Below, piece by piece: positions 7,781 to 45,063 of a stretch of 64,000 bases of DNA. Location: the NCBI RefSeq assembly GCF_022647885.1, contig NZ_JALCLM010000001.1, positions 1,844,610 through 1,908,609 of the forward strand. Reading direction: 5' to 3'. The translations under genes and the position numbers were made by a program. Every line of letters starts with the position of its first letter. Position 1 is the stretch's first letter. The DNA is from Bifidobacterium sp. (lineage in GTDB: Bacteria; Actinomycetota; Actinomycetes; Actinomycetales; Bifidobacteriaceae). The notes beneath the pieces were generated by a model. The model was not told the origin of the DNA. It searched no databases and saw only the letters and a program-made list of their open reading frames with translations.

Positions 7781-7903
7781 AACAGTCTCCCCCTGCTCCG
7801 TGCACTCACGTTTCGTAGGTACACGACGCTCACATCCCGCACCTACACCTTGTATATAGACAATCGCTCAGCACATCTTCGGTAATGTCAGTCTACGCTT
7901 GAA

Positions 7904-7913: not shown

Positions 7914-7916
7914 AAC

Positions 7917-9787: not shown

Positions 9788-9876
9788 AACATCCTCCTTT
9801 CTCATCATTCCTAGTCCGCTTGTCTGCTTCCCCAAGCTGGGGATGTCAGTAACATCACCAAGCTTCGATATGGGCT

Positions 9877-9926
9877 GGCAACGCTGAAGTGATTTGGTGA
9901 TTCAACCGTTACACTTCTGCGTTGTC
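9877..9926 (-). promoter_or_regulatory. intercistronic hairpin between binding-protein and permease genes
   Basis: Arms 9877-9891 (ggcaacgctgaagtg) and 9912-9926 pair at 13 of 15 positions around a 20-nt loop. There is no clear U tract. The position 3' of the binding-protein gene suggests mRNA stabilisation or partial termination to raise its level over the permeases. Confidence 0.5.
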
Positions 9927-9984
9927 GCCCGTAGAATGATGACCTGCTTGCCACTCTTCGCTGATACCTGTTCAGGTGTTCGAA

Positions 9985-21744: not shown

Positions 21745-23016
21745 TTATACAGTGCTATCAGACCAAGCTTCAGCAAGTATCTCATCACATCTAGTTTTGA
21801 GAGCCTTAGCAAGGGTATCGGGACTGTCAAGCAATGTGACTCCGCCGAGAACTTGCTCGAAGGGATTGCGGGTCAGTCGATTTTCTTCCTTCCACTGGTT
21901 CATACCCGTTTTGTATGACTTAACCATCAGATGCAATGCGACATCCTCATGAAACTCTCCTTTGATAAGCCAATCAATCGGAGTGAAAAATTCGAATGAA
22001 ACGCCAAAAGCAGCTCCCGCTCTTGAAAAGTCCTGAATATAATACCGTGACATCCAGTGCACACGATTCTCATAGGAGCCTTTTCGTTCAAAAGTATCCC
22101 AGAAACGGGGATTACCACAACTCACCAGACCAAGAGGTCCAACCTCATGGCCAGTCTCTTGCGGAACCTCATACAGAGATTGCAGTATCGTTTGCGCATC
22201 TGCTAGCTTGTCATTAGCGCCTATTCGATAGTCGCCGAGCGAATTCAGAAAATTATATGCTACCTCTTCATGTCCCTTCACTTGGTCGGCGAACTGACGT
22301 ATTTGTTGATCAGACTTGTTCATATCCTGCCCGTTTCTTCTTGCACTGAAATTATCCATATACTGTTCCAAGAGATCCACTGCACGAGGGTCCGCGTCCA
22401 GCAGCTTCTCCCCCACACCGTTAAGTACCTGATCGAAAAGTTCGTCATAATTGACCGAGAACAAATTCTCGTTTGCCTGTAAGCCTTTGGCACACCAAGG
22501 AAAATCTGATAATTGTAAATCACCGGCATGCAAGACGACCACGCAAGTAAGATCTTCGACGTTCCCTTGTTCCGATGCTTCACTATGAATTTTTTCGTAA
22601 TAGTCGTGTAGATCGTTGTACAAAGAAGCATCAACTTTGTTCTCAATGGCGATGCTCAGATGTGGGGTATGAACAGCGATGTCAACACGATTACGCGTAT
22701 CAGTCCCGTTGCTGACCTCGGTTTGTACATAGACACCGTCATTGTCGTCCTCGGAGTATGAATACCGCGCTAGTTCTTCGTCACGTTTATCATTCAATAC
22801 GGCAATCAACGATTTTACGAACAACCCCGCTAAACCATGCGATTGCAGCGGATCGAAAAAATATGCAAGAAGATTTGAGGAAACAGTCTCCCGACGTGGA
22901 AACCCTGCGATCTCGAAAACATTAGGACGTTTGGATCTTTCCCCATCCGATGGGGTAAATGAGAATCTGCCCAATGAGGTCCAATCGTATGCACACTTGC
23001 TATCTTGATCGTTCAA
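21745..23016 (-). CDS. PD-(D/E)XK nuclease superfamily protein
   Basis: A 423-residue protein with an N-terminal PD-(D/E)XK core. ETVSSNLLAYFFDPLQSHGLAG (about residues 43-64, starting with a conserved Glu) is followed by the strand RVDIAV with Asp112 and AIENK with Glu125 and Lys127. That spacing matches the family found in standalone nuclease genes of defence and mobile islands. The C-terminal 250 residues are not recognised. The start is a TTG at 23,016 supported by AGGAGG eight bases upstream. It stands alone, with over 500 gene-free bases on its 5' side. DNA cleavage is inferred from the active site. Confidence 0.78.
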   Translation of the reverse strand: MNDQDSKCAYDWTSLGRFSFTPSDGERSKRPNVFEIAGFPRRETVSSNLLAYFFDPLQSHGLAGLFVKSLIAVLNDKRDEELARYSYSEDDNDGVYVQTEVSNGTDTRNRVDIAVHTPHLSIAIENKVDASLYNDLHDYYEKIHSEASEQGNVEDLTCVVVLHAGDLQLSDFPWCAKGLQANENLFSVNYDELFDQVLNGVGEKLLDADPRAVDLLEQYMDNFSARRNGQDMNKSDQQIRQFADQVKGHEEVAYNFLNSLGDYRIGANDKLADAQTILQSLYEVPQETGHEVGPLGLVSCGNPRFWDTFERKGSYENRVHWMSRYYIQDFSRAGAAFGVSFEFFTPIDWLIKGEFHEDVALHLMVKSYKTGMNQWKEENRLTRNPFEQVLGGVTLLDSPDTLAKALKTRCDEILAEAWSDSTV

Positions 23017-27214: not shown

Positions 27215-27502
27215 TTAACTACCATTTCTGAAAAAAGATTTGAAATAGTGCATCAAATCTGAAAAAAGTTTGAATGCGTCTTCTTCACGTGCATTTTGAG
27301 CAAACAGCTCTAACGATTCCCCCTTTGAGACTCCACATCGCTTAATAAGCGCTATGCCTACGCTATTTTGGGTAAAAGAATCGAAACCGTCAGTACCGAA
27401 ATCAAGTACACACCCACCTCGATTAAACGAACACAGAAAAGCTTCTTTTCCAACAAATGACAATTGATTTTGGGAATCAGAAAACAATTGCTTATCAGTC
27501 AC
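27215..27502 (-). CDS. small protein coupled to restriction helicase (AbiJ N-terminal-like)
   Basis: A 95-residue protein starting with GTG in a GTGA overlap with the stop of the helicase gene, so its translation is tied to the helicase. The sequence pattern (LFSDSQNQLSFVGKEAF, then FTQNSVGIALIKRCGVSKGESLELF and KLFSDLMHYF) resembles the N-terminal domain that precedes variable effector domains in AbiJ-type abortive-infection proteins, but here it stands alone. It could be a truncated abortive-infection gene or an accessory subunit of the restriction-like system. The family likeness is from memory of the pattern and is weak. Confidence 0.5.
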   Translation of the reverse strand: MTDKQLFSDSQNQLSFVGKEAFLCSFNRGGCVLDFGTDGFDSFTQNSVGIALIKRCGVSKGESLELFAQNAREEDAFKLFSDLMHYFKSFFRNGS

Positions 27503-30024
27503 TGTGACAACTCTTCAAACTCTTGAACAGGTATTGCTGTATCGAAAAGCCCAACCCGCAGATCATGCTCATGTTTATCAATACCTGCATAGGATAGGCT
27601 GTCGTCTTCATAGCGTTTGAATTTGTAGACAGCATCGTTCATGCGCGCGCTATTGAATACGTTCAAACTCAGGAGCAGCTCAAAATCCTCTTTGGTGAGT
27701 CCTGTTACTTTCTTGAACAACTCCGGCTCAAGCTTGGTAATGACATCGCGTAAGGTCTGTTCGCGATAATCAGTCAAGTACATGAAGATAGGGATTCGCG
27801 TGGCAAACTTAATCAGCTTCTTCTGAATCTGCTCACGCAAACTTTTGGTTTCTTTCTCATCCTCCCGCACCTGTTTCTTTTCATCCGCAGAGAGCTTCTC
27901 GTCCTTGCTCTTCATCTCTTTGAGTTCATCGGACTTATTGATGATTTTTTCGAGATCATCATTGAGTTTTCGGAAACCTTCAATACTCATCAGCGCATCC
28001 ATTGCCTGCTGATTGTTCATGAGCTTGCGCAGTGTTAGATCGTCGACGTTTACAAGCAGCGCACTTTCCCAGCGTTTGGCAAGCAGCGTCGCCGAAGTAC
28101 CAGAAGAAGCAATGTCGAGAACATCCGTCGCATTGATCTGCTTCATGCTGCTTCCGTCATAGGCAAGCACAGGCAGGAAATGAATGAACTCACTCACACT
28201 CTGCTCAGGTGAAGTATTCTGGTCAGGATGCAATGCGCAGCTGTAATCGGCAATCTGCCTGAGCGCCCTCGTCGGCGCAAAGTCAAATACATAGCATTCC
28301 TTTTTGAGGATTTCTTGTTCGTTAGGATGCATTCCATCTGGATTATCAATTACCCACGGTGACTGAACGCGAAATGCCGCTTGGAAATACGTCTCAGGAC
28401 TTTTGAGATTGCGTAACATCAAGATCCCAGTCCAAGGTTTGACAGTCACCCCTGTTGTCAACTTACCGCACGATAAGGTGATTGTTTTCGACGCAAGCGG
28501 GTCAGCCATCGATTTACGAACAGGTTCCAAGGCAGCAAGGCCAATGCCAGCTGCAGCGCCTGCGGCAACGTTCACCGTGTAATCACGGAAAAATACATTT
28601 TGTCGTTCCTGCAACAGATTCGCCATAGCATAGCAGGATGCCACAGATGGCATGAACCAGAATGTGTGAGTCAGGATGTTTTTCAGACGTGCATCGGAGA
28701 AGGGCATGGGTGGCTTCTTCGCACCCAGCTTGAGTTCGTCTACCGTTGTTTCTGCAAAACCTCCACGGAGAAGATCAAGCCACTTTTGCACTTCGCTGCG
28801 GTGCTTGAAACTGGCTTCGTTGCCCTCACCGACAGCGGAGAAGAACTCGTTGAGGTCGAACTCGTCAAATTCGCCGCCCGAGGCGATTTCGCGAATCTGG
28901 TCAGGCATCTGATAGGTCATCAACACCATGCGAGGTAACGACGAGTAAGGATTGTCAGCGTTTTCGGGTTCCCACTGCTCTTTCGCCCGTTGCTCGTCAG
29001 AGTACGTCCAGTTAAAAATCTGTTCTTCGATGAACTCACCGTTAGCGATAGCCCGGAACGGCGTTCCGGATAGAAACAGATAAGCACCCGTGGTGATCGG
29101 CAGGAAATCCGTATCGCCCATCGCAAAGCCCTCATCGATGAGCTGAGCGACACCGTTCATATTGTCATTTTGCTCTCGCTTATCCTCTTCTTCGAAGAGT
29201 TCACGTGCACTGTCTCTCCAAGCACCGAAATGATATTCGTCGAAAATAACAAGATCCCAGTTGATCTCATGCACCCACTCATTACGAGCTTTAATGCCAC
29301 CAGCCTCATTCTTACCCAAGTAATCCTGGAACGACCCGAAGCACACTATTGGCCTAGATTTATCTGCCTTACCATATGTAAGTTGAGTCTCGCGAGAGAT
29401 GAACTGCCATCCGTCAAAATCCTCATGTGATTCAAGGTCCTCACGCCATGAATTCTCGACTGCTGGTTTAAAAGTCAATACGAGCACCCGTTTGTATCTC
29501 TGAGCTTTTGCGAACTCATAACTGGTGAACGTTTTACCGAAGCGCATCTTCGCATTCCAGAGAAAACGCGGCGGCTGACCTGGATTGTCTTGATTGAATT
29601 TCGTGAAATACTCTTGTGTTCTCTTTACGGCTTCAATCTGCTCTGGGCGCATACCGAAACGCTGCGTACGCTCGGTCAATGAACTCCTACGTTCACGTAC
29701 AGCCGAAATTGCATTCTGAACGTCTGTGACCGAGCAGATAAACCACTCACCAGCTACGTGCGTGAACTGTTGCTTGAGCAGCTGGTGAACGGCATGATCA
29801 TCGAAGGTGGAACCGTCATCACGCATTGCCGTTTCTTCAAGCACGATACGAACTTGTATATGCGCAGTTCTCGTCTGCTCTGCGATTCTGGTGCGAATAT
29901 CACGGTCTGTGTATCCTACTTTGAGCTGTCCTTTATGCGAAGCATCGTCAATTGCATAAGCGTAGATCTTAGGCGTAATCGCAGGTCGCTGAGGAAAGAA
30001 ACCGTCAGGCATCGTTGTCACCAT
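27499..30024 (-). CDS. GIY-YIG nuclease-helicase fusion, restriction subunit
   Basis: An 841-residue fusion. Residues 20-100 form a GIY-YIG-type domain of the T5orf172 kind (IYAYAID, LKVGYTDRDIRTRI, later GEWF). A superfamily-2 helicase follows, with Walker A MRFGKT (160-165), Walker B DEYH (262-265) and a C-terminal helicase half (TLSCGKLTTGVTV). A charged Lys/Glu-rich coiled coil lies near residues 710-740. It is the third gene of an operon after two methyltransferase-type genes, overlapping the second by 20 bp. The arrangement suggests that it translocates on and cuts DNA lacking the host methylation, with the GIY-YIG domain as nuclease (inferred). Confidence 0.82.
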   Translation of the reverse strand: MVTTMPDGFFPQRPAITPKIYAYAIDDASHKGQLKVGYTDRDIRTRIAEQTRTAHIQVRIVLEETAMRDDGSTFDDHAVHQLLKQQFTHVAGEWFICSVTDVQNAISAVRERRSSLTERTQRFGMRPEQIEAVKRTQEYFTKFNQDNPGQPPRFLWNAKMRFGKTFTSYEFAKAQRYKRVLVLTFKPAVENSWREDLESHEDFDGWQFISRETQLTYGKADKSRPIVCFGSFQDYLGKNEAGGIKARNEWVHEINWDLVIFDEYHFGAWRDSARELFEEEDKREQNDNMNGVAQLIDEGFAMGDTDFLPITTGAYLFLSGTPFRAIANGEFIEEQIFNWTYSDEQRAKEQWEPENADNPYSSLPRMVLMTYQMPDQIREIASGGEFDEFDLNEFFSAVGEGNEASFKHRSEVQKWLDLLRGGFAETTVDELKLGAKKPPMPFSDARLKNILTHTFWFMPSVASCYAMANLLQERQNVFFRDYTVNVAAGAAAGIGLAALEPVRKSMADPLASKTITLSCGKLTTGVTVKPWTGILMLRNLKSPETYFQAAFRVQSPWVIDNPDGMHPNEQEILKKECYVFDFAPTRALRQIADYSCALHPDQNTSPEQSVSEFIHFLPVLAYDGSSMKQINATDVLDIASSGTSATLLAKRWESALLVNVDDLTLRKLMNNQQAMDALMSIEGFRKLNDDLEKIINKSDELKEMKSKDEKLSADEKKQVREDEKETKSLREQIQKKLIKFATRIPIFMYLTDYREQTLRDVITKLEPELFKKVTGLTKEDFELLLSLNVFNSARMNDAVYKFKRYEDDSLSYAGIDKHEHDLRVGLFDTAIPVQEFEELSQ

Positions 30025-31534
30025 TCATAGGGCGAATACAACTTTCAATGAATAATTGCTCTTCTTTTGTGATGCCATATTTCTCGTACAACTTTTCGTC
30101 AGTCCATTCTTGAGTGCAGTCCTGAATAGGAACAAAAGCATATGCCTCACGTGTAATATGCTGGGAGAACATAAACTGCGAAACCAAGAATCTAAAGAAA
30201 CGTGTTTCCATGTAATTTCTGAGATTCTCAGCTTCTCTTTCACTATCAAATGCTCCTACAACTAGGTACGTCTCGTTGCAGATTACTTTAGGTGGCAGGA
30301 TGTGAATTTTAGTAAATACCTTTCTCATACCATTCTTATCAGGGCTACCAGCATGATCATAAGCAGAATATGCTGCAATGACCTTATACTTATTGATCCA
30401 TTCGCGACCATTAGTCACTTCCGCGCTGGGGAATCGACCTTCACCATTTTGCCAATGGAGTATGAGATCACCTTGTTGACGAGGCCGTACGTTAGTGGCA
30501 AGTCCAAATGGCTTACGACTTGAAACCTGAGTGTTCATCATTGACTCATGTCTAGACACTACTTTACGTACGACTGGAACAGCACGGCTGTTTCGAATAA
30601 AAATGGTGAACTCATCCAAGCCTCGAACGCTCTCATGCTCTTTACCATTAATTACGTTAATTACATTGCAACTACCAGGGTTGTCTCTATCCCACAGAAA
30701 ATAGCAGACACCTCCCGCAAGATCCACACCCGGGAAACATTCGTTTGCATTTTCGAAATCAACAAGCTGCCGTATACGTTTGTCCGCAAGCATAGAGGAA
30801 CGAAAACTGTTTAACCCCTTGCCACCGCCGAACCAACGAGACGGAATAATCATTGAGAGGTATCTTGGGTTAAGTTTCTCTGCCTGTTCGACAAACTTGT
30901 GATAAATCGGTGCAGCACTTTTACCGTAACCACCGTCGCTAAGCTGATATGGTGGGTTGCCCACGATGACATCAAACTGCATATCGTTGTAGATCCTCTC
31001 GGGATTAAATGTATGGATGAACTCGTACGTATAACTTTCAAGATCGCTCCCACGGTCATACTGCTCTTTGCTAGCACCGCAATAGACGCAGTTGTTCCCA
31101 GCCCATGTATGCTCAATCGCCCTGTAATGAATGTGCCCGTTCGCATCATCAAAAAGCGGTTCAATAGAGTATTCCCCATTTGCCTTCTTTGAGCAATAGA
31201 GTGTGCGACGAGCAAGGAGCGCAGTCAATTCAGTGATTGCGATACCCCAAACTTGATAGTTCAAAATATGATTGATTCGCTCTTGCAAATCCGGGAACTC
31301 ATCCTCTAAACCAACGAGTAGTCGCTTGGTAATTTCGCGAAGGAACACGCCGGTTTTAGTGAATGGGTCTAGGAAAGTAATCGAACTGTCATGCCATATA
31401 TCCGCTGGCAATAAATCCAATACTTGATTCGCCAGCTGCGGCGAGGTGAACACCTCATCATTGGAGAGGTTCGCCAAACAAGACAGTACGTCCGGATTGT
31501 ACGACATATTCCCAAGCTTCAAACGGCTACTCAT
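30005..31534 (-). CDS. Eco57I-type adenine-N6 DNA methyltransferase
   Basis: A 509-residue methyltransferase. The SAM-binding region FLDPFTKTGVFL is at residues 54-65 and the catalytic motif IV NPPY at 193-196 (VIVGNPPYQLSDGG), the gamma-class adenine-N6 signature. A CVYCG motif near residue 150 may bind zinc. The C-terminal part with EREAENLRNYMETRFFRFL resembles the target-recognition end of Eco57I-like enzymes. It overlaps the upstream gene by 8 bp and the downstream helicase by 20 bp, so the three form one operon. Expected to methylate host DNA as protection. Confidence 0.85.
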   Translation of the reverse strand: MSSRLKLGNMSYNPDVLSCLANLSNDEVFTSPQLANQVLDLLPADIWHDSSITFLDPFTKTGVFLREITKRLLVGLEDEFPDLQERINHILNYQVWGIAITELTALLARRTLYCSKKANGEYSIEPLFDDANGHIHYRAIEHTWAGNNCVYCGASKEQYDRGSDLESYTYEFIHTFNPERIYNDMQFDVIVGNPPYQLSDGGYGKSAAPIYHKFVEQAEKLNPRYLSMIIPSRWFGGGKGLNSFRSSMLADKRIRQLVDFENANECFPGVDLAGGVCYFLWDRDNPGSCNVINVINGKEHESVRGLDEFTIFIRNSRAVPVVRKVVSRHESMMNTQVSSRKPFGLATNVRPRQQGDLILHWQNGEGRFPSAEVTNGREWINKYKVIAAYSAYDHAGSPDKNGMRKVFTKIHILPPKVICNETYLVVGAFDSEREAENLRNYMETRFFRFLVSQFMFSQHITREAYAFVPIQDCTQEWTDEKLYEKYGITKEEQLFIESCIRPMNGDNDA

Positions 31535-32189
31535 ATTGGTTCACTTCCATGAAATGCGTAAGCGGATATTCTTTAATTGGCGTGGATATAGCTCTACCAA
31601 CGGCATCTTCATCGACGTCCATATTCTCAACCATGTCAAGTGTTGGCGCTGCAGTGGCGGTGTTCAACAGTGAATCGAATGTAAAGTCGCGTCGTTTAAT
31701 CTTGCTGCCTGTCACCAGTGACCATTCAGGGAACACGATTGGACTACCGTCGCTCTTAGTGAGCGTTAGCGCATCGCCGCACAAAATGTTCTTGTTAAGT
31801 AGGTAATGAATCGCGTCCCGAAACTCAGGTTTGCAGTTCTCCTTGAATTTACGAGTGTATTGCTTATTGACGATACCGAAGAGACGCTCGCGACATTCCC
31901 CAACATTGTCCTGCATGATATCCACTCCGTATATCGATGACACAGCCACGAACGTATACCGCTCATATTCGAGCTGACTCTTGCCATACCGTTTATTCAC
32001 CACTGCGAGCTTGCGTCTCAGTACTTCGGAAAGGAAGTTGCCATCGCCGCATGCCGGCTCCAGGAATCGACTGTCGATACGCTCAGTCTCCCTCTTTACC
32101 AAGTCAAGCATAGCGTTGACTTCACGAGGATTGGTGAACACCTCGCCGTGTTTCTCAACGCGCTGCTTAGACTTGACTTGTGACGACAT
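31527..32189 (-). CDS. methyltransferase-like protein without catalytic NPPY
   Basis: A 220-residue protein with a Rossmann methyltransferase front end: GEVFTNPREVNAMLDLV, then motif I FLEPACGDGNFL (residues 43-53) and YGVDIMQDNV (motif II). No NPPY-type motif IV is present and the protein is too short for a full enzyme, so it may be a SAM-binding partner or specificity-helper of the next methyltransferase rather than a separate enzyme. GGAGGT lies five bases before the ATG. It is the first gene of the restriction-like operon. It also contains CxxxFR-type polar segments I do not recognise. Confidence 0.75.
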   Translation of the reverse strand: MSSQVKSKQRVEKHGEVFTNPREVNAMLDLVKRETERIDSRFLEPACGDGNFLSEVLRRKLAVVNKRYGKSQLEYERYTFVAVSSIYGVDIMQDNVGECRERLFGIVNKQYTRKFKENCKPEFRDAIHYLLNKNILCGDALTLTKSDGSPIVFPEWSLVTGSKIKRRDFTFDSLLNTATAAPTLDMVENMDVDEDAVGRAISTPIKEYPLTHFMEVNQYE

Positions 32190-32493
32190 TTCTGACCTCC
32201 GTGTAGGCTCTCATATTACTGTTTTACGACGATAATCCCGACAAACTCAAAGCATTTGACGATTCCAGTCAGGGTTGGTCAGTCACAAATTTGCAGAGCG
32301 GTGGTGGCCTATCGTGCTTCTCCTGTGCGCTTAACCAACTATGATCTGAAACGGATTATATAAGTTCCAAAAGGTTAATTCATTATTCTCTATGATCTGC
32401 CCGTATCGGGTGACTCTGTTTTGTACAACACTCCAGAGCATATTTCATTCAACGTTACCTAGACTGCTATGTAAAGCGAGATATCATCAGAAT
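32190..32493. other. divergent intergenic region, methyltransferase operon / TIR gene
   Basis: About 300 bp without a gene between two divergent starts. It should hold promoters for both directions. I see AT-rich blocks around 32,340-32,400 but no convincing boxes. Confidence 0.5.
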
Positions 32494-33216
32494 ATGAGCG
32501 GATGCACAGCCCCTATACTGGGACACAGAACAGCAAGCGGAGCCGCAGCGTGCCCTATTCACGGAAGAGGCGGCTATGGATACTATTCACCCGCACCTTC
32601 ATATTACAGTCGGTCGGATTATGCGCATTCATATAGAGCGAGCAGTGACATGCGGTACTCATCTGGAACAAGTACAGTACGGCCACAATGGTCTCCAAGC
32701 ACTTCACCAGTAACATACACATCTGATGAGATCCGCGCACTGACACCGATCCGTCGTACTATCGAATCCGATTTCCGCCCTGAGAACGATCTCCGTGATA
32801 TTTTCCTCTGTCATGCTTGGGATGATAGACACGGCATAGCCACGAACTTACATGACAGACTTGTGAATCAAGGTGTGACAGTCTGGTTCAGTGAAAAGGA
32901 CATCGTACTAGGTGAACCATTTTTGAGAGAAATCGATAGAGGTCTCGCTAAATCGCGCACAGGTATTGTCCTTGTAACTCCTGCCCTATTAAAGCGAATT
33001 GACAGTCGCGGTGTTTCAGATAAGGAACTTTCTGAACTTCTTGCTAGAGACATACTAGTTCCTGTGCTGCACGATACTACATACGAAGAACTCCGTAGAA
33101 TTAGTCCATTGCTTGCCTCTCGCAATGGCTTAGACACTTCGGCTGATTCTTTAGAGGACATAGCGATTAAAATCAGCGAATTGGTTGCATTTGAAGACAA
33201 TCTAGCAACTGCGTAG
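32494..33216 (+). CDS. TIR-domain protein with Cys/His N-terminal motif
   Basis: A 240-residue protein. The first 25 residues hold Cys4, His11, Cys20 and His23 (CTAPILGHRTASGAAACPIH), which look like a compact zinc site. Residues 28-75 are Tyr/Ser-rich and probably disordered. Residues 101-225 form a TIR domain: RDIFLCHAWDD, GVTVWFSEKDIVLGE, GIVLVTPALL and DKELSELL, where Glu178 is the candidate NADase glutamate. TIR proteins in such islands usually deplete NAD+ when a partner senses infection; no obvious partner is adjacent, so the sensor may be its own N-terminus. Its end overlaps the helicase relic on the other strand. Confidence 0.8.
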   Translation: MSGCTAPILGHRTASGAAACPIHGRGGYGYYSPAPSYYSRSDYAHSYRASSDMRYSSGTSTVRPQWSPSTSPVTYTSDEIRALTPIRRTIESDFRPENDLRDIFLCHAWDDRHGIATNLHDRLVNQGVTVWFSEKDIVLGEPFLREIDRGLAKSRTGIVLVTPALLKRIDSRGVSDKELSELLARDILVPVLHDTTYEELRRISPLLASRNGLDTSADSLEDIAIKISELVAFEDNLATA

Positions 33217-33960
33217 TTTCGCCATTGGCAGATGTGAAGTGCGCACTCATACGGTGAGCTTCATCGACAATGGCGATATCCCAATGCACATCCTTGAACA
33301 TGTTCAATCTGTCGTCATCACGCGCGACCTGATCCATGCAGCAAATAAGCAGTGGATGATCTCTGAAAGGATTGCCGGTCGACGACAATACCTGCATATA
33401 CGGATCAAATTGCTCAAAATCAAGCCCGAACTTCGAACTAAGCTCGCCAGCTTAGCCAAGCCCCCCCCCAAACAAGGAAATGCTCATGCGTTCCGCAGCC
33501 GAACGCATGAGCATTTCCTTGATGTGTAACCCGGCCATGACTGTCTTACCTGCACCAGGATCGTCAGACAGCAGGAAACGAAGCGGCACCTTGGGCAGCA
33601 CGTCTTCATAGACGGCAGGAATCTGATGCGAAGCACCTCAGCAACAAGTCTGAAATTCTCCGGGTTGGCATCAAACGGCAGTACACGGTCGGACTGCCGA
33701 GCCAGATGCAGGTGCTTGACGGATTCCACATCAACGATTTCCTGCCCAAACGTCGAGCCATCCCCTGCACCGTAATACACCGTGACATCCTGGTTGGGCA
33801 CGATCCCTGAGACGACTGCACCGGCTTTGATATCGGAGAGAGTTAGTTCCGAATCGACCATGTTATCTTCCAAGTCCCGTTCTTCAGTCTTCAGTATCGT
33901 TTTGCCTCCCCCTATCGGAGCACTATCACCAATACTGAGATTATGCTGATTATATGACAA
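33173..33960 (-). pseudogene. SNF2-family helicase, N-terminal remnant
   Basis: Minus-strand fragments in several frames rebuild the first 250 or so residues of an SNF2-like helicase of the kind found in DISARM (DrmD) and related systems. They read [32 protein letters not shown], then [19 protein letters not shown] (Walker A), GNPFRDHPLLICCMDQVARD and WDIAIVDEAHRMSAHF (Walker B). Frameshifts lie near 33,630 and around the long palindrome at 33,473-33,521. The remaining helicase and everything downstream is missing, replaced by the TIR gene on the opposite strand. No other DISARM genes are present. Confidence 0.68.
33473..33521. repeat. perfect 21-bp palindrome inside the helicase relic
   Basis: Arms 33,473-33,493 (caaggaaatgctcatgcgtt plus c) and 33,501-33,521 are exact reverse complements around the 7-nt loop cgcagcc. 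A run of nine C lies just before it at 33,461-33,469. Confidence 0.85.
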
Positions 33961-35681
33961 TCAGCGATGAGAACTTTCAAGAACTTGTACAGTGTCTAGG
34001 TCGATGGGCATTGGCCTATTTTCTTAACTGCAGAGCCGAAGACATAGACATTCAAGGCAAAATCATGAAGAACACATCTCCCAAGCAGGACCAGACGCTT
34101 CTCACATTATGCGCGTTATTCATGAGCCGCAAAAGGGCAACGCCAAAAGAACTTCCCAGAGTATTTGAGTCCGATATTAGCCACCTAATCCATGGAGAAA
34201 CATCAACCGGGAATGCGCTACGCGCAGCCAGCGGCGGCGAACTACACAAGGTGCCTAAGAACATTAAAGAAGGGGAACAATATCTATTCAAGATTACCGA
34301 ATCCGTTTATCCCGCTTTATTGATTGATTATAAACAGCCACCTGAGAATGGTGCCAATTCTCGGTATTGGTCATATGACACGTATGGTAATCCTGTCAAT
34401 AGGGAATTCTGTAACTGGTTACGCATAAACAATGAAGCGTTCAAACATTTCAGTTCTGGCAACCAGACCCCAACTCTTTATTTAGTCCATAGCTCTGGTT
34501 TTGCAGGAAGCTTTCAGTTATATACGTTGGCAGAGCATGTCATCGATACAGCGTGGATTACTGCACTACGTAACAAAGAAACTAAAGATCCGCCGACTTT
34601 TACTGACTTGTTTTCTCAGGTTAAAAAAGTATTCGATGAAGTCAGAAATGGACTATCAACAGGCGAATATCATGGTATTGCATTAGTGGGTCTGTCGGGT
34701 GTTCTTCTACCCAATAGCGTGCAGGCATTTGACGTGGCCAATGTAAGAGTTCGGCGTTGGTTGCAAAGTGATACGCGTTTCTCGTCTGTTCTTGATGATC
34801 GATATTATTGTGGCGGTTCCGATGCAGGTTCAGAGGGACACCGGTTCCATTACCGAGGCGACATAGTGGCCGAAATACCAATAACTCTTAAGGTTACTGT
34901 TCCACAGCCACCGGAAGAAAGTTCTTCAGAAGAACGTTCTACAGAATTACATAGTCTCAGCAATGAGCTACGAGAGGCAATCAACTATAAAGTTCATTTG
35001 GTCCAGCTTGCTTTGCTGCTCTCGCAACAATCAAATTCTCCATCTGGGAGATGGACCTGGCAAACGATAATTGATCCATTATCCAACGGGAGCAGTATTG
35101 CTTTTGAGTCCAAAAGCCCTTACATCAATACTCAAGGCGCGCTGACATTGACTACCGATGATCTGGAAAACTGGAAGATTTGGTTGGAACGGATTCTGCA
35201 GCATGAGGAGAGTCTGCGAAATTGCTTCATCGGTGTTAGACATTTGCTGTCGGCTGTCAATGAACGAGAGAATCCGGATGACAGGTTACTTGACGCAGTT
35301 GTTGCTTGGGAGAATCTTGTAGGTGTTGATCATCAAACAACATTCAGAGTAACTGCAGCTTTGGCCTGCTTGCAATCTGATGAACCAGAAGTTTATCAGG
35401 AGAGACAAAAGCAATTCAGTAAAATCTATAACGTCCGAAGCAGAGTGATTCATGGATCTGACACAGCGGACAAAGTTGAAGTGGAGTTCAGACAAACGTA
35501 TGGAGAACCTGCCAGTGAAGTAGCGATTGCAACCGCTGTCAAGGCTTACCAAGCAGCATTAACATCACATCTAGAAATCCTTCATATACGCGATAGTGAA
35601 ACACGCAATCATTGTATTATAAAAGGCAAAGTGATTGAATCTATCCATAACGAATGTTCTCATAAATATGAATGGAGCTGA
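33954..35681 (+). CDS. HEPN-domain protein (ApeA-like), putative antiviral RNase
   Basis: A 575-residue soluble protein. The C-terminal 150 residues resemble the ApeA-type HEPN domain: LLDAVVAWENLVGVD, a helical stretch, then YNVRSRVIHGSD with the RNase motif R-x4-H at Arg495 and His500. Residues 1-400 are not recognised and may sense infection. ApeA is a single-gene antiphage system thought to cut RNA and shut down the cell; the same role is inferred here from the domain and the island context. It starts 7 bp inside the divergent helicase relic. Codon use looks AT-richer than the chromosomal backbone, in keeping with transfer. Confidence 0.7.
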   Translation: MTISDENFQELVQCLGRWALAYFLNCRAEDIDIQGKIMKNTSPKQDQTLLTLCALFMSRKRATPKELPRVFESDISHLIHGETSTGNALRAASGGELHKVPKNIKEGEQYLFKITESVYPALLIDYKQPPENGANSRYWSYDTYGNPVNREFCNWLRINNEAFKHFSSGNQTPTLYLVHSSGFAGSFQLYTLAEHVIDTAWITALRNKETKDPPTFTDLFSQVKKVFDEVRNGLSTGEYHGIALVGLSGVLLPNSVQAFDVANVRVRRWLQSDTRFSSVLDDRYYCGGSDAGSEGHRFHYRGDIVAEIPITLKVTVPQPPEESSSEERSTELHSLSNELREAINYKVHLVQLALLLSQQSNSPSGRWTWQTIIDPLSNGSSIAFESKSPYINTQGALTLTTDDLENWKIWLERILQHEESLRNCFIGVRHLLSAVNERENPDDRLLDAVVAWENLVGVDHQTTFRVTAALACLQSDEPEVYQERQKQFSKIYNVRSRVIHGSDTADKVEVEFRQTYGEPASEVAIATAVKAYQAALTSHLEILHIRDSETRNHCIIKGKVIESIHNECSHKYEWS

Positions 35682-35739: not shown

Positions 35740-36012
35740 TCATTTTTTCTTGGCGATGAACCTTGATACCGCTTTAACCACTTTCGGCCCATACTTGACT
35801 GCGAAGCCCGCTATTGCAAGAACTACTGGCGCTATCGGAGCAACTGTCTTTGCAAACTGACTGCGACAGTTGTCGCACTTGCTGTACCTGTATGTCGACG
35901 GGAGTTCTCGATGACATTTCTCACATGTGCGAATCTTCCCAACGTTGAGGGTTGATTTATCATCTTCGTCTTTGTCATTTTGGTTCTGTACCGGACGTTT
36001 CAGTGGGTTCAT
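35740..36012 (-). CDS. small zinc-finger membrane protein
   Basis: A 90-residue protein: an acidic and basic N-terminus, a four-cysteine zinc site (Cys30-x2-Cys33 and Cys46-x2-Cys49, CEKCHRELPS and KCDNCR), then a hydrophobic helix at about 56-75 and a Lys-rich C-terminus ending AKKK. The ATG at 36,012 overlaps the end of the preceding gene by 38 bp, showing that they belong together. It is the third gene of a cassette with a zinc-ribbon protein and a two-helix membrane protein. Function unknown. Confidence 0.6.
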   Translation of the reverse strand: MNPLKRPVQNQNDKDEDDKSTLNVGKIRTCEKCHRELPSTYRYSKCDNCRSQFAKTVAPIAPVVLAIAGFAVKYGPKVVKAVSRFIAKKK

Positions 36013-37186
36013 AGTCGTCGCCTTCCCTCGTGTCAGTATTTTCACTGTTGTTCTTCATTGGTTCGAAAGCACTAAGTAATTGTTTGGGAACTTCTTCATC
36101 ATCGTCGAGTTCCTTGAGATCAATAGCTCTTTGCGCTATGTCTGAGAATTGATCAACAACGTTTTCAAGTTTACTGCCTTGCTTGAGATTCGTATTAATC
36201 CGTAACAAGGTGTCACGGTCATCGAGCTTATTATCAGTGATAAAGTCTCTGAATTCAACTAAACATTCTTTGCTCGCACCCATTTGGCCCAACATGAGGT
36301 AGCCTTCGCCCTCAACTCGGACAGCGTTGGTAATTGCTACTAAATCTTGCAGTGAGTCCTCCGCTTTGACGGCAGAATCTTCTTTTGAAATCGAGTCTTT
36401 GATCATGCCCAATAATGGTTTTTCAGAATGCGACTCAATGTATTGTTTCTTCTCAGTGAAATTCCTCATGAGTATTCGTTTAGCATCTGTTGCCGAAGAA
36501 ATAGCCTGCAAAACATAGAACTCGCGTAGTCGACTATCGGCAATAGCTCGCGCCTGTATGAGCTTGTCCCAAGCACTTTCGGCCATTGCCAGCCGGTCAT
36601 TCTGAAGACCGGACTCCAATTGCTTGATCCCTTCGTTCACGCTATGAACCTCGGCCAGCACCAGCGAAAGCGCTGCCTGAGTTTCCAGATGTTGCATCGC
36701 TTGGGTCAGATCTGCTGGAACCTGAATTTGTTCCAGCCGCACCTGCTTAACGAACCCTTCTTTACCAAAAATTGTTGGCAGTATTTCTCCATTCTTATCC
36801 AGCACAAGACGAAGCGTTCCTTCATCAATCAGTTTTTTGTAATAATCTGATATCTTCGCTACCCAATGTGTTTCGTTCTCACCAGTAGCCATTTTCATAA
36901 TGAGATCCGCAAGTGACGGGAGAGTCGTTCGTATATATTCCCAATTGCCGAAAAACTGCATAAATGTCTTGTTATCACTAGGTGCAGCATTTACAAGCTC
37001 AGACTCGACTATATTTTGCCGGGGGTTCCATCGTTGTATTTCATATTTGATCACAGGGAGGTGCTGGTATGTATCCTGCTCACTGATCGGTTTGCTCACG
37101 TCAGAACTTATAAATCCGCAATGTGTGCATGTCCGAGCTTTGCTGGAAATGCTTGTACCACATTCAGGGCACATAATCATGCTCAT
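35975..37186 (-). CDS. zinc-ribbon protein of unknown function
   Basis: A protein of about 403 residues. The N-terminus is a zinc ribbon (MCPECGTSISS, then CTHCGFISS; Cys6, 9, 20 and 23), followed by a predicted helical body with Gln/Leu/Glu-rich segments (LTQAMQHLETQAALSLVLAE, IKQLESGLQNDRLAMAESAW) that could form coiled coils, and an acidic C-terminal tail. No enzyme motif is visible. Several starts are possible within nine codons (GTG 37,195; ATG 37,186, 37,180, 37,174). It follows the membrane-protein gene with little or no gap and overlaps the small zinc-finger gene, so the three genes form one transcription unit. Confidence 0.65.
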   Translation of the reverse strand: MSMIMCPECGTSISSKARTCTHCGFISSDVSKPISEQDTYQHLPVIKYEIQRWNPRQNIVESELVNAAPSDNKTFMQFFGNWEYIRTTLPSLADLIMKMATGENETHWVAKISDYYKKLIDEGTLRLVLDKNGEILPTIFGKEGFVKQVRLEQIQVPADLTQAMQHLETQAALSLVLAEVHSVNEGIKQLESGLQNDRLAMAESAWDKLIQARAIADSRLREFYVLQAISSATDAKRILMRNFTEKKQYIESHSEKPLLGMIKDSISKEDSAVKAEDSLQDLVAITNAVRVEGEGYLMLGQMGASKECLVEFRDFITDNKLDDRDTLLRINTNLKQGSKLENVVDQFSDIAQRAIDLKELDDDEEVPKQLLSAFEPMKNNSENTDTREGDDYEPTETSGTEPK

Positions 37187-37195
37187 TACAATCAC

Positions 37196-37633
37196 TCATT
37201 CCGAATACTGTTGGTGGATTGAGAGCTTTGGTTTTGGCTTCCACTCTGTGAAAACATACAACACCCAAGATTGAACGGCGAGAAGAATTCCCACGGTAAC
37301 AAGATCGGATCCAAACCGTTGAAGGTAGCCGAAAGTTGTTGACTTTTCTTGATAGTTTTTACTCACTTCATCGTATGCGTTCGAATTCGAAGATGTATCT
37401 GAAGCCGTGTTATGCAGAGATTGAGTATATTCGTCATATGCTTTCAATGACCCACTGGCCGAGACGATTGACAGTACAATTCCCAAAACAAAGACAGAAA
37501 CGGCAATAATCAAAACCCAAAGCGAAATCTGTTCCTTAAGATTACTTTTCTTAGTCACATAGATAATTCTCGTAGGTACATTATTAGGCGGTTCTTGCAC
37601 AGGTGATACTTCGGCATTTTCATATCCTGACAT
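37196..37633 (-). CDS. two-helix membrane protein of unknown function
   Basis: A 145-residue protein with a cytoplasmic N-terminus of about 35 residues, transmembrane helices at about 37-58 and 109-128, and a polar Ser/Asn/Tyr-rich outside loop of 50 residues between them. The C-terminus WKPKPKLSIHQQYSE is basic. It is the first gene of the cassette that continues with the zinc-ribbon protein and the small zinc-finger membrane protein. I do not recognise the family. A membrane anchor plus soluble zinc-ribbon partner suggests a sensing or effector complex at the membrane, which is only inference. Confidence 0.62.
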   Translation of the reverse strand: MSGYENAEVSPVQEPPNNVPTRIIYVTKKSNLKEQISLWVLIIAVSVFVLGIVLSIVSASGSLKAYDEYTQSLHNTASDTSSNSNAYDEVSKNYQEKSTTFGYLQRFGSDLVTVGILLAVQSWVLYVFTEWKPKPKLSIHQQYSE

Positions 37634-39526: not shown

Positions 39527-41785
39527 TCAGGACAGGATTTCGGCTGTAAAGTACTTGCGCAACGCCTGAGCCGTGAACGAATTACCGTGCATAAGCAGTT
39601 GTTCCGGAGGGCCTTCGAAGAGGATGTGCCCGCCGTTTGCCCCCGCACCTGGTCCGACATCGACAATCCAGTCGGCCTGCCCGATGAATCTGAGATTGTG
39701 TTCTATGACGACAATGGTGACCGACCTGTTGACAATCAAGGACTTGAGCAGGTCGATGATCTGCTGGATGTTTGATTCGTGCAGCCCGCTGGTGGGCTCG
39801 TCCAGGACCAGCAGCTTCGTGCTCTCGTTCATGAGGAACTTGGCCAGTTTCAGACGTTGCAGCTCACCACCCGAGAGGGTGTCCAGCGACTGCCCGATTG
39901 ACAGGTACGAGAGCCCGACCTCTTGCAGATGGCGCATGGCCGGCCCCAGTGATCTGGAATACAGTCGCTGAGCCTCTTGCGCCGTCAAGGCAAGAGCCTG
40001 CGCGATATTCAGCCCATGGTGACGATACCGTAATGCCTGTTTGGAATATCGCGTTCCGTTGCAGTCTTCGCACACCGCCGAAGTGTCGGCTAGATAAGCG
40101 AGGTCTAGCGTAATCACGCCCTTGCCCTTGCAAGTGGGGCATCTTCCTTCACCGTTGTATGAGAACAACGAGGGGTCTTGATTCGTGGCGCTTGCGAAAT
40201 CGGAACGCAAGGCGTCGAAAACGCCCAGATAGGTGAGGAGATTCGAGCGGTGGGTCGTGTGGATGGGTCGTTGATCCAGCAGTATTCCTTGCTGCTGTTT
40301 GAGCAAACCTTCCGACACCAAGGTGCTTTTCCCTGAACCGGCGACGCCGGTTATCACGCTTAGCGCGTTCCTCGGAATTCTGGCGGAGACGTTGTCGAGA
40401 TTATGTTTTGTGACGTTCTCGATTTCGAGGAATTCACCATCTACCGCCGAGCCTTGAGTCATCGTCCCGCGATTTCGCAGGGCCTGGCCGGTTCCGGTGT
40501 CGCTGGACAGCAGTGCAGAGTAAGTACCTTGGAACGTAACCGTCCCTCCGCGGCTCCCTCCTCCGGGCCCCATATCAATGACATGGTCGGCTATGTTGAT
40601 GAGTTCCGGGTCGTGATCGACCATGACGAGAGTATTTCCCTTATCTCGTAACCCTTGGAATATTTGCGCCACACTCAGGAGATCATGCGGGTGAAGACCC
40701 ACACTAGGTTCATCGAAGATATACAGCACATCACTCAAGGGACTGTTGAGATAGTTGGCCAGCTTGAGACGCTGCGCCTCGCCGCCGGAAAGTGTTGTCG
40801 TCACCCTATCCAGACTGAGATAGCCCAACCCCACCTTGACGAGATTATCTATCTTTGCGGTTATCTCCTTGACTATCACAGCCGATGAGCCGGCATCGAT
40901 TCCGTTCATCCACTCATGAAGCTGCCGAATACTCATCGAACTGCACTCCGCTATGCTCGTTCCTTTGATTTTCGCGGAAAGCGCCTGCTCATTCAACCTC
41001 GTTCCCTTGCACGACGGGCATATTCCGGTCTGCGTGATTCGCGTGATGTCATGCTCGTAGGTGCTTGAGTCCCGATTCATGATTGCCTCAATCCTCGGAA
41101 TGAGACCTTCGTAGCTTGCGCTTTTATGCCATTGCGCCGACGGGTGCGTCGGTTTCTGCCGCTTCCCGTACAGCAGGAGCTCCAAGGTCGCAGCAGGCCA
41201 ATCTTCGACAGGCAAATCATTGTCGAAGAAACCGGATTCCGTGTATCTCGTCAGTCTCCAACCCCCGGGTTGAAAGGTTGGGAAACGTATGGCCCCTTCC
41301 TTCAGGGTTTTAGACATGTCAAGAAGAGATTGCGGGATTATGGTTCTCGCAAAACCGAGTCCCTGACATGTCGTGCACATCCCCGACGGGGTATTGAAGG
41401 AATACGCCATCGAATATCCGATGAAGGGCTTGGCGATACGGGAGAACAGCAGACGCAGTGCGGTGTATAGGTCGCTATACGTTCCCACGGTGGAACGTGC
41501 GTTTCCGCTGAGCTGTTGCTGACCGACCACCAGGGAAAAGGGCACATTATCTATCCGTCCGACCGTCGGAGCAGGATATTTCGGCAACAGTTGCTGAACA
41601 TAGGCACTGTATGCCTTGTTCACGTTCCTTTGTGATTCTGCTGCAAGTGTGGAGAAAACAAGGGAAGATTTTCCCGATCCAGAAACACCAGTGACCGCAG
41701 TTATCTTATACTTTGGAATGCGCACGGTGACATTCTTGAGATTGTTCGTACTTGCATTCTCAATGATGATATCGCGACCGCTCAT
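39527..41785 (-). CDS. UvrA-like ABC ATPase (class II, drug-resistance type)
   Basis: A 752-residue paralogue of excinuclease subunit A with two ABC modules. Walker A motifs are GVSGSGKSS (residue 33 on) and GVAGSGKST in the second half, with signatures LSGGEAQRLKLANYL and LSGGELQRLKLAKFL. Zinc-site cysteines are seen in CTTCQGLGF, CPSCKGTRL, CPTCKGKG and CEDCNGTRY. It is about 200 residues shorter than canonical UvrA, as in UvrA2/DrrC-like proteins linked to resistance to DNA-binding drugs. It overlaps a MarR gene by four bases (ATGA) and is the second gene of that operon. It is host-side, just beyond the island boundary. Confidence 0.88.
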   Translation of the reverse strand: MSGRDIIIENASTNNLKNVTVRIPKYKITAVTGVSGSGKSSLVFSTLAAESQRNVNKAYSAYVQQLLPKYPAPTVGRIDNVPFSLVVGQQQLSGNARSTVGTYSDLYTALRLLFSRIAKPFIGYSMAYSFNTPSGMCTTCQGLGFARTIIPQSLLDMSKTLKEGAIRFPTFQPGGWRLTRYTESGFFDNDLPVEDWPAATLELLLYGKRQKPTHPSAQWHKSASYEGLIPRIEAIMNRDSSTYEHDITRITQTGICPSCKGTRLNEQALSAKIKGTSIAECSSMSIRQLHEWMNGIDAGSSAVIVKEITAKIDNLVKVGLGYLSLDRVTTTLSGGEAQRLKLANYLNSPLSDVLYIFDEPSVGLHPHDLLSVAQIFQGLRDKGNTLVMVDHDPELINIADHVIDMGPGGGSRGGTVTFQGTYSALLSSDTGTGQALRNRGTMTQGSAVDGEFLEIENVTKHNLDNVSARIPRNALSVITGVAGSGKSTLVSEGLLKQQQGILLDQRPIHTTHRSNLLTYLGVFDALRSDFASATNQDPSLFSYNGEGRCPTCKGKGVITLDLAYLADTSAVCEDCNGTRYSKQALRYRHHGLNIAQALALTAQEAQRLYSRSLGPAMRHLQEVGLSYLSIGQSLDTLSGGELQRLKLAKFLMNESTKLLVLDEPTSGLHESNIQQIIDLLKSLIVNRSVTIVVIEHNLRFIGQADWIVDVGPGAGANGGHILFEGPPEQLLMHGNSFTAQALRKYFTAEILS

Positions 41786-42225
41786 CTGGCTGACCTGCCA
41801 TTACGAAGCTCTTTCACCAGTTTCTGTGACAATTCTTCGAATTGTGACTGTTCTTTTGCTGACCATACGGATCTCGCAACATCTGCAAGTTCCTGATGTT
41901 GACGGTCGACGTTACGCATAAATGCTAAGCCCGAAAGAGACAAAGTTGTCTGCAGCTCTCGTCGGTCACCCGAGCCTGGTACTTGCTCAACATAACCGAG
42001 CGATTTCAGCTCACCAAGATTTTTCGACAGTTTTGAACGCGATATCCCCAAACGCTCGCTCAACACAGATGGTAGAACTGAGCCTTCCGTCAATGCGAAC
42101 ATGATGTCATATTGAAGCCAAGTAACACCTTGTGGGTTCACGCGATTTCTTTCTGCCACGAATTCGCATTGCAACAGCATGAGAGCCGTGTTGAAGGATG
42201 AAGAAGATAAGTCATTTGATTTCAT
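41782..42225 (-). CDS. MarR-family transcriptional regulator
   Basis: A 147-residue winged-helix regulator. The recognition helices are LPSVLSERLGISRSKLSKNL (about residues 51-70) and the wing carries GDRRELQTTLS with the usual Asp-Arg-Arg. It is translationally coupled to the UvrA-like gene. A perfect 15-bp inverted repeat covers its start codon, a likely autoregulatory operator. Probably senses a toxic compound and controls its partner. Confidence 0.87.
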   Translation of the reverse strand: MKSNDLSSSSFNTALMLLQCEFVAERNRVNPQGVTWLQYDIMFALTEGSVLPSVLSERLGISRSKLSKNLGELKSLGYVEQVPGSGDRRELQTTLSLSGLAFMRNVDRQHQELADVARSVWSAKEQSQFEELSQKLVKELRNGRSAR

Positions 42226-43274: not shown

Positions 43275-44951
43275 TTAGTGAGCGAGCATCTCCTCTACTA
43301 CCTGCTCCTTGCTCAAACTAGCAGGATAATACGTAGGCCAATTATCCATCTCTTTCAATGCATCCTCTTGATTATCATCGAGGAAGATATGAAAGTGCGC
43401 AGACTTAGCTGCTGTAATCCCATGATCTGAGAACTGGACAGCTCGCGCAGCCCCATCTGGGACATCTCCTGTAGCTGTGAAGAGATAACGCACTCCCCTG
43501 TTGCCCTTGGCATAGTCAAGTATGCGAAATCCGGAGTACTCATATGTTGCCGTCACGCTCTTCTTACCACGAGTGAAAGTAATACTGTTGCCGGTTATTG
43601 ACATGCTGTCGATATCGGTTGCATATCCGACGTCATAGTATTTGGTGTATTCTGCAACGCTCATATCACCTTGCTTAGCTTTAGCCTCCATAACAGGCTT
43701 CAAGCTGCCATCTTTGAGCAGAGGATACACAGACTGCCATTCATTCGCATAATCAGCAAGTGATCGATCCTTAACATCTTGAGTAAGGAACCAACCATTG
43801 GTAGTGTCGTTGGCTAAGGCCTGATGAGTAATCGTAGTTAACCAACCAAGCAATGTTTGCTGCTTCTTCGGCAGTTGCTCAGTAACAGAAATAATCGTCT
43901 TATTACTGCCGATTGCTGCATCGTTAAGCTTTTCAGCGAAACCGCTCATCTCTTGCGGATTGACAATTAGTAGGTCAGTAGCATCTGAAGACACCAGCGC
44001 GAGAGCTTCCTTCAAATCAGCCGCACTAGGTTCAGCTTCACTATTCATCGCCTGAGTATATGAGGCAGGTGTACTGTCCACAGCTCCGATATACTCCAGC
44101 AGATAACTGATAATCGATTCTGTCGCAACATACTGACGCTGAATTTTCTGACTGCGAGCATTGTTTACCAGTGCCACAAATTCTGCGTAATCAGCATTCC
44201 ATTCATTGGCATGTCGCTGCACGGTTGCTGCCGTATCAGTATGCTCTCCCGCCTTTGCCATGAATGCTTCTGTAATGCTCTCTGCAGTCGTCAACACGGC
44301 CTCAGGGCTGAACCATAAATGAGGATTAGTTGAACCGTGATGATGATGCCCTTCTTCCTCATTATCGCTATGCTCGTGTTCTCCAGTTACTGTAACCCCC
44401 ATCAAATCGCCCACATTTACAACTGTCTGCTGATCGCTGAATTGTGCCTGCTGTGCCCAACTGTCATATCCGGCACCGTTTACAATCACCACGTCTGCTG
44501 AGCTGAGCTTGGCCATATCTGACGCCGTAGCTTCATAGCCGTGAGGATCTGCTGATGTGGAATTAATTAATGAGGTAACTACAACACAGGAACCGCCTAA
44601 CTCTTCAGCCAACGATCCCCACTGGTTCACCGATGCTACAACCTTAATTGTGGTGCTACACACATCATTGGCATCAGTCGAAGCCGCCGGTGCTCCTTGA
44701 CCACCACTACTCGTTGATGAGCTACGGAAAAAGGTGACAGCACCAAAGACAAGTGCAGTTACTACCAAACCTGCTATGAAGGAAATCACTAGCGGAAATA
44801 GCTTGTGCCCTGCGATAGCTCTCTGTGAAGTTTCACTTGGCACTGGACTAGACAATATAGGCTGCGAGTTTGTCGCTGCCTTCGGTGAATTTGCTGAGGA
44901 ATCAGTTGATGGGTCGGTGGACGGGCTGAGATTTGAGTCAGTCACGTTCAT
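43275..44951 (-). CDS. zinc-binding protein, ZnuA/AdcA with C-terminal ZinT domain
   Basis: A 558-residue surface protein for zinc capture. A polar N-terminus is followed by one membrane segment (52-75) that probably anchors it. The ZnuA-type cluster-9 domain starts at KVVASVNQW and contains ADPHGYEATASD, the His-rich loop EHEHSDNEEEGHHHHG (191-206) and NPHLWFSP. The last 185 residues are a ZinT domain with YYDVGYATDID, SAHFHIFLDDN and EMDNWPTYYP. This domain order matches AdcA of streptococci. No lipobox is evident, unlike AdcA. No ABC permease or ATPase gene is adjacent. A Zur-like box lies upstream. The ATG at 44,951 is uncertain; a GTG at 44,981 is also in frame. Confidence 0.88.
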   Translation of the reverse strand: MNVTDSNLSPSTDPSTDSSANSPKAATNSQPILSSPVPSETSQRAIAGHKLFPLVISFIAGLVVTALVFGAVTFFRSSSTSSGGQGAPAASTDANDVCSTTIKVVASVNQWGSLAEELGGSCVVVTSLINSTSADPHGYEATASDMAKLSSADVVIVNGAGYDSWAQQAQFSDQQTVVNVGDLMGVTVTGEHEHSDNEEEGHHHHGSTNPHLWFSPEAVLTTAESITEAFMAKAGEHTDTAATVQRHANEWNADYAEFVALVNNARSQKIQRQYVATESIISYLLEYIGAVDSTPASYTQAMNSEAEPSAADLKEALALVSSDATDLLIVNPQEMSGFAEKLNDAAIGSNKTIISVTEQLPKKQQTLLGWLTTITHQALANDTTNGWFLTQDVKDRSLADYANEWQSVYPLLKDGSLKPVMEAKAKQGDMSVAEYTKYYDVGYATDIDSMSITGNSITFTRGKKSVTATYEYSGFRILDYAKGNRGVRYLFTATGDVPDGAARAVQFSDHGITAAKSAHFHIFLDDNQEDALKEMDNWPTYYPASLSKEQVVEEMLAH

Positions 44952-45063
44952 ACTCGTTTCTATATGTTGTGTTGTACTCACCGCTAGCGCATACGATCGA
45001 TGCTGACCGTGAAGAGATTGCTGACGACGAGCCGCTCAGGAAGGCGGATAGTTAAACACTATA

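Follow-up and report, generated by a model that had tools for sequence, protein, structure and literature searches.

Two overlapping minus-strand genes, which we call A and B, occur in a 64,000-nucleotide stretch of Bifidobacterium DNA (the window) and are conserved as an overlapping pair across phyla, beyond chance. The pair is mobile and often stands beside restriction and other defence genes. Our preferred reading, which is tentative and built on sequence comparison, is that A and B may be a two-gene module, a membrane-anchored complex that serves as an accessory of restriction-type anti-phage operons and would act as a second layer at the membrane. Because the pair travels between distantly related bacteria, often just behind DNA-cutting anti-virus genes, we believe that it is probably an unrecognised add-on to bacterial immunity. 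Where single loci must be told apart they carry L numbers, and plasmid and phage records carry H numbers.

An overlapping pair of genes

Gene A (35975..37186, minus strand) encodes 403 aa, with an N-terminal four-cysteine zinc ribbon, a middle region, a helical-looking body that contains a QNDRLA motif, and a C-terminal tail. The ribbon (CPEC...CTHC) lies close to the N-terminus and is predicted to bind zinc; by hydropathy, A is without a membrane segment. We place the start at the ATG at 37186, at the equivalent of which the homologues of A also begin, while an alternative GTG at 37195 would give 406 aa. Twenty-nine relatives of A have 39–48% identity.

Gene B (35740..36012, minus strand) encodes a 90-aa cationic protein. 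It starts at the ATG at 36012 and overlaps A by 38 bp (35975–36012) in the +1 frame, the overlap that had already been read from the letters of the window. B has a CxxC-12-CxxC ribbon followed by a Gly/Ala-rich C-terminal hydrophobic segment (about residues 56–72) and a basic tail. A 17-aa window with a mean hydropathy of at least 1.66, again followed by a basic tail, is present in 26 of 28 members of the B family, and the exceptions (L083 and L094) have best 17-aa means of 1.34 and 1.46. The hydrophobic segment is kept across the family, and from it we infer a membrane location for B.

B follows A in 35 of 36 loci from named genomes, the exception being L082, which is without B. It is directly behind A in all 14 full-length Bifidobacteriaceae loci that we counted, where B was called with blast, except that L022–L024 were called by inspection and the named copy of L023 with an HMM. 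All 33 overlapping loci have B in the +1 frame relative to A, as in the window, and the overlap is 20–38 bp in 24 of 34 loci measured from mechanical starts. There is also a possible fusion: in L041 the C-terminus of A carries a weak B-like ribbon and hydrophobic tail (HMM E 0.037). The fixed order, the overlap frame and this possible fusion are why we think that A and B would work as one membrane-anchored complex.

A is under purifying selection, with dN/dS of 0.02–0.25 in 20 of 32 A pairs where dS was computable. B is less constrained (dN/dS 0.05–1.04 in 16 of 24 pairs with an estimate).

Profiles made from the core alone reach forms of A that have no N-terminal ribbon (for example L036, L037, L104 and L132–L137). 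Twelve loci with distant forms were examined, and six have a B-like ORF at E ≤ 0.01; in L104 and L135 only inspection by eye shows a small ORF, the tail of which is hydrophobic and basic. In L104 the distant A relative stands beside a gene (391–1134) for a 247-aa protein with many GYDRDGFN-like repeats.

Restriction and defence genes beside the pair

A reference restriction or defence gene lies within 4 kb of A/B in 30 of 46 loci and in 0 of 40 control pieces, counts that are not blind and are biased because the references (scanned neighbours of A/B loci, plus the ThsB, type IIG-like and Eco57I proteins of the window) were drawn from the same loci, and that are inflated because many clostridial loci are related by descent. 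The controls are pieces of 20 regions picked at random in ten Bifidobacteriaceae genomes and represent that family only. After we collapsed look-alikes by hand, about 18 of 33 loci had a reference defence gene within 4 kb. A search for the neighbourhood of the genes near defence loci had been proposed for three genes, and it is for the A/B pair that it gave this association. In the 30 loci the nearest reference gene is upstream on the same strand 25 times, downstream on the same strand three times, and downstream on the opposite strand twice, the window being one of these two.

The count of 46 omits L065, L066, L076, L094 and L025, which come from the same or nearly the same record as a kept locus, and also L101, the distant forms (L036–L041, L104 and L132–L137) and the short locus L103, where the pair is full and bears the ribbon. 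Near-duplicates that were kept are the AIPR group, L079/L081–L083, L084/L100, L085/L086, L087/L095, L023/L024 and L078/L080.

A PADLOC tally at E ≤ 1e-20 is less biased than the reference-gene count. It gave 136 models for 100 neighbour ORFs from 14 Bifidobacteriaceae loci and 43 for 100 of 242 control ORFs (200–1500 aa, mechanical ORF calls included), numbers that count models and not unique genes. Among the best 25 models of each set, those leading in the neighbours were GmrSD-type (up to 5 ORFs), BrxL (3), PglZ (3) and mad3 (3), and those in the controls included mad3 (2) and single-ORF matches such as PDC-S01, PD-T4-6, SoFic, mad6 and SspH, none being above 2 ORFs.

The scanned neighbours include BrxL, an MvaI/BcnI endonuclease with a C5 methylase, GmrSD-type proteins, AIPR/AbiU, AlwI, MmeI domains and REase-ARP, as well as a Druantia-like DruE with a UvrD helicase, type I HsdS/HsdR, a Schlafen-type helicase and a set of SMODS, SLATT_4 and AlbA. 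Among the systems near A/B are BREX, MvaI, AlwI, GmrSD, type I restriction-modification, Druantia-like, AIPR/AbiU and CBASS, with McrBC and type III-like genes in addition on plasmids, and in L084–L086 the pair sits between hsdS and hsdR. Consistent presence with any one of the two systems for which we counted it was not seen: of the 46 loci, 3 have BrxL at a distance of up to 4 kb and 5 have hsdR or hsdS, a count that includes L069, where the match is at 24% identity only. Genes for hsdR/hsdS are also annotated on some plasmids that carry relatives of A.

These plasmids were reached through an Enterococcus faecium plasmid protein that aligns with 52% of a clostridial-type A at 22.3% identity. 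As a query it returned 16 plasmid records (Enterococcus, Lactococcus and Lactiplantibacillus), and comparison of this set with the A family by hhalign (probability 99.5, E 2.1e-23) supports homology to A; because the set was found through the A family, it is no independent discovery. We examined the context in 11 of the 16 records. In 10 of the 11 the end of A overlaps with a small ORF that encodes a Cys/His ribbon, a hydrophobic stretch and a basic tail, and in the exception (H11) A itself is annotated as two pieces. Annotated restriction genes are nearby in 8 of the 11, with none in the stretch for H15, H17 and H18. There are sets of hsdS-hsdR-DUF262 and of DUF3578-McrC (with hsdS further on) near the A relative, an Eco57I methylase with BsuBI/PstI that is separated from it by IS30, two sets of a helicase, DUF4391 and a methyltransferase, one of them on the opposite strand, that we term type III-like, and three sets with hsdS and GIY-YIG.

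We propose that A/B was recruited to restriction-type operons, usually being placed behind other genes. Through its C-terminal hydrophobic segment B would hold a zinc ribbon at the inner side of the membrane, and A, with a helical body and a second zinc ribbon, would be its partner in the cytosol. The putative complex would respond when invading DNA meets or escapes restriction, and its output would most likely be at the membrane, as an abortive, membrane-level response. Since the frequent companion is restriction of unrelated kinds, a general second layer seems likelier than a subunit of one system. In its widest form, which we consider possible but hold with less confidence than the two-gene reading itself, A/B could be a portable, so far unrecognised membrane-level back-up to restriction-type operons of almost all classes (types I, II, III-like and IV, BREX and Druantia-like) in at least two phyla. 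It would then belong to no single system and would be tied, as a general second line, to the restriction of DNA. If this is true, a two-gene membrane partner has been overlooked in many restriction loci that were long taken as complete, and it becomes directly testable how restriction is linked to the membrane or to the death of the cell.

There are several points against the membrane-complex reading. Sixteen of the 46 loci (L027, L028, L030, L032, L034, L073, L077, L078, L080, L088, L091, L092, L093, L096, L098 and L099) show none of the reference defence genes up to 4 kb away, their neighbours having been scanned against the libraries in part. Beyond this, B is the less constrained of the two genes, no catalytic motif was found in A or B, and in one group the pair is at rlmD-type ends. 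A/B may be a defence-island hitchhiker.

The association mainly with DNA-restricting systems of many kinds would also fit a membrane tether, in which A/B neither kills nor senses by itself but keeps restriction nucleases, or DNA on its way in, close to the membrane, where foreign DNA would be met on entry. B as a membrane-type cationic ribbon suits such a part, as does the weak fused form in L041, which suggests that B need not leave A. A tether would however have to bind many unrelated enzymes, and A/B also occurs beside AIPR, beside CBASS genes, or with no defence gene seen; we regard it as unlikely.

Comparison with named families and systems

We compared both proteins with Pfam 2025, NCBIfam 2026, PADLOC 2023 and PHROGs v4. 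The N-terminus of A matches Zn_ribbon_3 (E 2.1e-6) and Zn_Ribbon_1, with Pfam scores just above the cut-offs, but these are generic domains and leave the body of A unmatched; for the body, no Pfam, NCBIfam or PADLOC model reached its cut-off or a credible E-value. A also belongs to phrog_31650, a PHROGs family of unknown function: residues 4–356 align to profile positions 1–337 of 360 (E 7.5e-34), a significant and near full-length match. This family has no function or partner on record. The best library matches of B are weak, with Pfam at E 0.009 and NCBIfam at E 0.0053 (both under cut-off) and phrog_18044 at E 0.0033. The sequence-only reading had found no family it could name, and this was right for the body of A and for B, whereas A does match zinc-ribbon Pfam models at its N-terminus and phrog_31650. 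On these comparisons, the body of A and B appear to be categorically new as parts, with no named family in Pfam 2025, NCBIfam 2026 or PADLOC 2023, and their mechanism could still be of a known kind.

No PADLOC system model was satisfied by A (best E 0.02, in the ribbon region) or by B (none at E ≤ 1), and when seven distant A and three distant B relatives were scanned the best match had E 0.028 and none was accepted. Among solved structures, the best match for A was a lectin coil at E 0.0049, which we do not find credible, and the plasmid relatives gave none.

The ribbon of B is weakly like the zinc-type ribosomal protein uS14 (profile E 0.0036), but B differs from it by its hydrophobic tail and by a non-ribosomal context. 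Kiwa consists of a membrane protein and a DNA-binding partner that work alongside host nucleases. A/B resembles it in possible working only, as two genes with one product at the membrane and one in the cytosol; no PADLOC Kiwa model matched A or B at E ≤ 1, and A has a zinc ribbon while B has a single C-terminal hydrophobic segment. In six loci (L067, L068, L070, L074, L075 and L097) an AIPR gene lies about 110 bp upstream of A, which recalls AbiU/AIPR. However, no AbiU model was matched by A, B or their distant relatives, and the remaining loci are without AIPR except for a remnant in L026. In type 4 BREX a small HTH-like zinc-finger protein is found beside a cysteine desulfurase, as described in a paper on BREX diversity (PMC12839542); B is here without a cysteine desulfurase context, and we compared the two by context alone.

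Literature searches listed no paper on the A/B pair, and a single search of limited reach on lactococcal Abi names returned no papers. Because of this last result, A/B may equal an old Abi gene that is absent from PADLOC. The sequence-only reading had taken the genes for an undescribed membrane-acting defence system. The defence association (30 of 46 loci) and the lack of a description hold for the A/B pair, and they do not extend to the three genes that were proposed.

Two overlapping genes and a small cationic product with a hydrophobic segment are also what one might see in a toxin-antitoxin or addiction module by which defence islands and plasmids are kept stable, where B would be a small membrane-acting toxin and A its partner. 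The presence of the pair at island ends and on small plasmids, and the loci without defence genes, would agree with this. What makes us judge such a module quite unlikely is that A is large and conserved, that the weak A-B fusion in L041 fits poorly with a released toxin, and that no toxin-antitoxin model in Pfam, NCBIfam or PADLOC reached its cut-off for A or B.

Distribution, mobility and the setting in the window

Had homologues of the genes been found mostly in core genomes, the sequence-only reading would have given up its defence proposal. A is instead sporadic: it has matches in 20 of 189 genomes of the family (15 with the full form and 5 with distant forms only), and its core is found in 7 of 200 genomes of one clostridial family, including the genome on which that search was centred. 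A search of named genomes gave 36 A loci, mainly from gut Clostridia, with others from Erysipelotrichaceae, Arcanobacterium and Bifidobacterium. The pair therefore recurs in Bifidobacteriaceae and gut Clostridia, and its distant relatives are on Lactobacillales plasmids.

We had considered a general actinobacterial family and rejected it because searches of the window's own phylum gave almost nothing: at class level, matches in the genome itself and 4 of 394 others, all of them short and in the N-terminal ribbon region, and in a wider search the genome itself and 2 of 396. The A of the window, searched against plasmids, phages and viral contigs and on its own against named genomes, gave ribbon matches or nothing, and using relatives of A or an alignment as the query reached more. 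Five A-type proteins were run with tblastn against 50,697 phage records; one had a ribbon-only match, three had none, and one had a weak partial match. This last match, in an unannotated phage record (H22, 24% over 62%), was too weak to use. We did not take a match in a viral contig (L101) as phage carriage because its neighbours are the same as those of Blautia L075.

One sequence group shows how the pair has moved. Its members have 1.4–1.7 kb of DNA in common, bounded at about -60/-82 on one side and +1350/+1590 on the other, counted from the start of A, and this unit stands behind AIPR, GmrSD, AlbA or rlmD. It is common to clostridial copies, to Arcanobacterium L071 (up to 94%) and to Bifidobacteriaceae L026 (up to 91%), which has the AIPR remnant (48.6% over 70 aa). 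This A/B group has moved between phyla at 91–94% DNA identity. The final ~30 bp of rlmD recur at the right end in six loci (L068–L071, L074 and L097), and L071 carries this copy in several positions; we scanned 38 loci for it and found it at the right side in that group only. We had thought of this conserved ~30-bp sequence as a recombination site and dropped the idea, as it matches the 3' end of rlmD. The copies look like island attachment repeats, and these A/B copies therefore seem to border islands that have integrated at rlmD. In the Arcanobacterium locus (L071, about 5887–11588), ~30-bp repeats of the 3' end of rlmD flank genes for a CD-NTase, SLATT_4, AlbA and A/B. This is a compact island of defence genes, and those that we listed there include no recombinase.

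Shared unit DNA under different upstream genes, with ends at about -60/-82 and up to +1590, together with the rlmD copies at the right end in six loci, could point to selfish or regulatory cargo of integrative elements, with A/B hitchhiking at island ends or aiding excision and having no defence role. Loci without a defence reference add to this, since some have mobilisation genes (the relaxase MobL in L096 and Toprim_2/DUF3991 in L073); others have ordinary neighbours, such as a 4-alpha-glucanotransferase (L091) or rlmD (L098, named from reading the sequence). Yet the rlmD end is limited to one group. In the Bifidobacterium, Druantia-like, type I and plasmid contexts the sites are different and defence genes still adjoin, and a place between hsdS and hsdR in L084–L086 suits cargo badly. 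We doubt this explanation rather strongly.

Returning to the window, the three minus-strand ORFs at 35740..37633 are present as the sequence-only reading placed them, but the three-gene cassette that it made of them did not hold up. The third gene (37196..37633, minus strand) encodes a 145-aa protein with two hydrophobic stretches by hydropathy. It was found beside A only in the window: the best match in 188 other genomes of the family had E 0.0023, the gene was not found in the other 20 loci of the Bifidobacteriaceae-search set, and the 4,459 ORFs of another 39 loci gave no match at E ≤ 1. The protein has a weak match to PADLOC PDLC03819 (RTasSLATT, E 0.0013), which we did not accept, and none to Pfam SLATT at E ≤ 1. 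The two-helix gene is thus no conserved partner of A/B; the three genes are not conserved together, and only A and B co-travel. Because of this, the idea of two membrane partners now rests on B, which is conserved and membrane-type. The stop codon of the two-helix gene is 9 bp before the start of A, and it is possibly co-transcribed with A/B, but a membrane complex of three genes specific to the window is very improbable when the two-helix gene stands with A in no other locus searched and has no convincing homologue in 188 genomes of the family.

On the other side, a gene on the plus strand (33954..35681, 575 aa) converges on B. It had been called a HEPN gene, and it does adjoin the pair, on the opposite strand, with an RSRVIHG motif that may be of HEPN type (Rx4-6H); no HEPN profile matched it, and neither did any Pfam, NCBIfam or PADLOC model at E ≤ 1. 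It has one relative in 188 other genomes of the family, with 53% identity and RSRVIHG kept, and none in 39 further A/B loci.

Several other genes of the window are worth naming. A ThsB-type TIR protein of Thoeris (32392..33216, plus strand; PADLOC PDLC00424, E 6.9e-93) is 2.8 kb from A, and there was no ThsA among the window proteins that were scanned for other purposes. A restriction-methylation set of three overlapping genes (27499..32189, minus strand) encodes a T5orf172/ResIII protein, an Eco57I methylase and a second methylase-like protein, and appears to be an unusual split type IIG-like set. Further along, 21745–23016 encodes a PDDEXK_4 nuclease that matches the candidate defence family PDC-S26 (PADLOC E 2.8e-35). 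A serine recombinase remnant (16052–17005, with Recombinase and zinc beta ribbon domains) runs into the tmRNA gene (15676–16072) at the 3' end of the latter, which suggests an old island at ssrA; when we looked within the window for an ssrA-end repeat bounding it, we found only the ssrA copy itself. Beyond the two-helix gene, a UvrA-like ABC protein (39527–41785) adjoins a MarR-type regulator (41782–42225), and 43275–44981 encodes a fusion of a ZnuA-type zinc uptake protein and ZinT.
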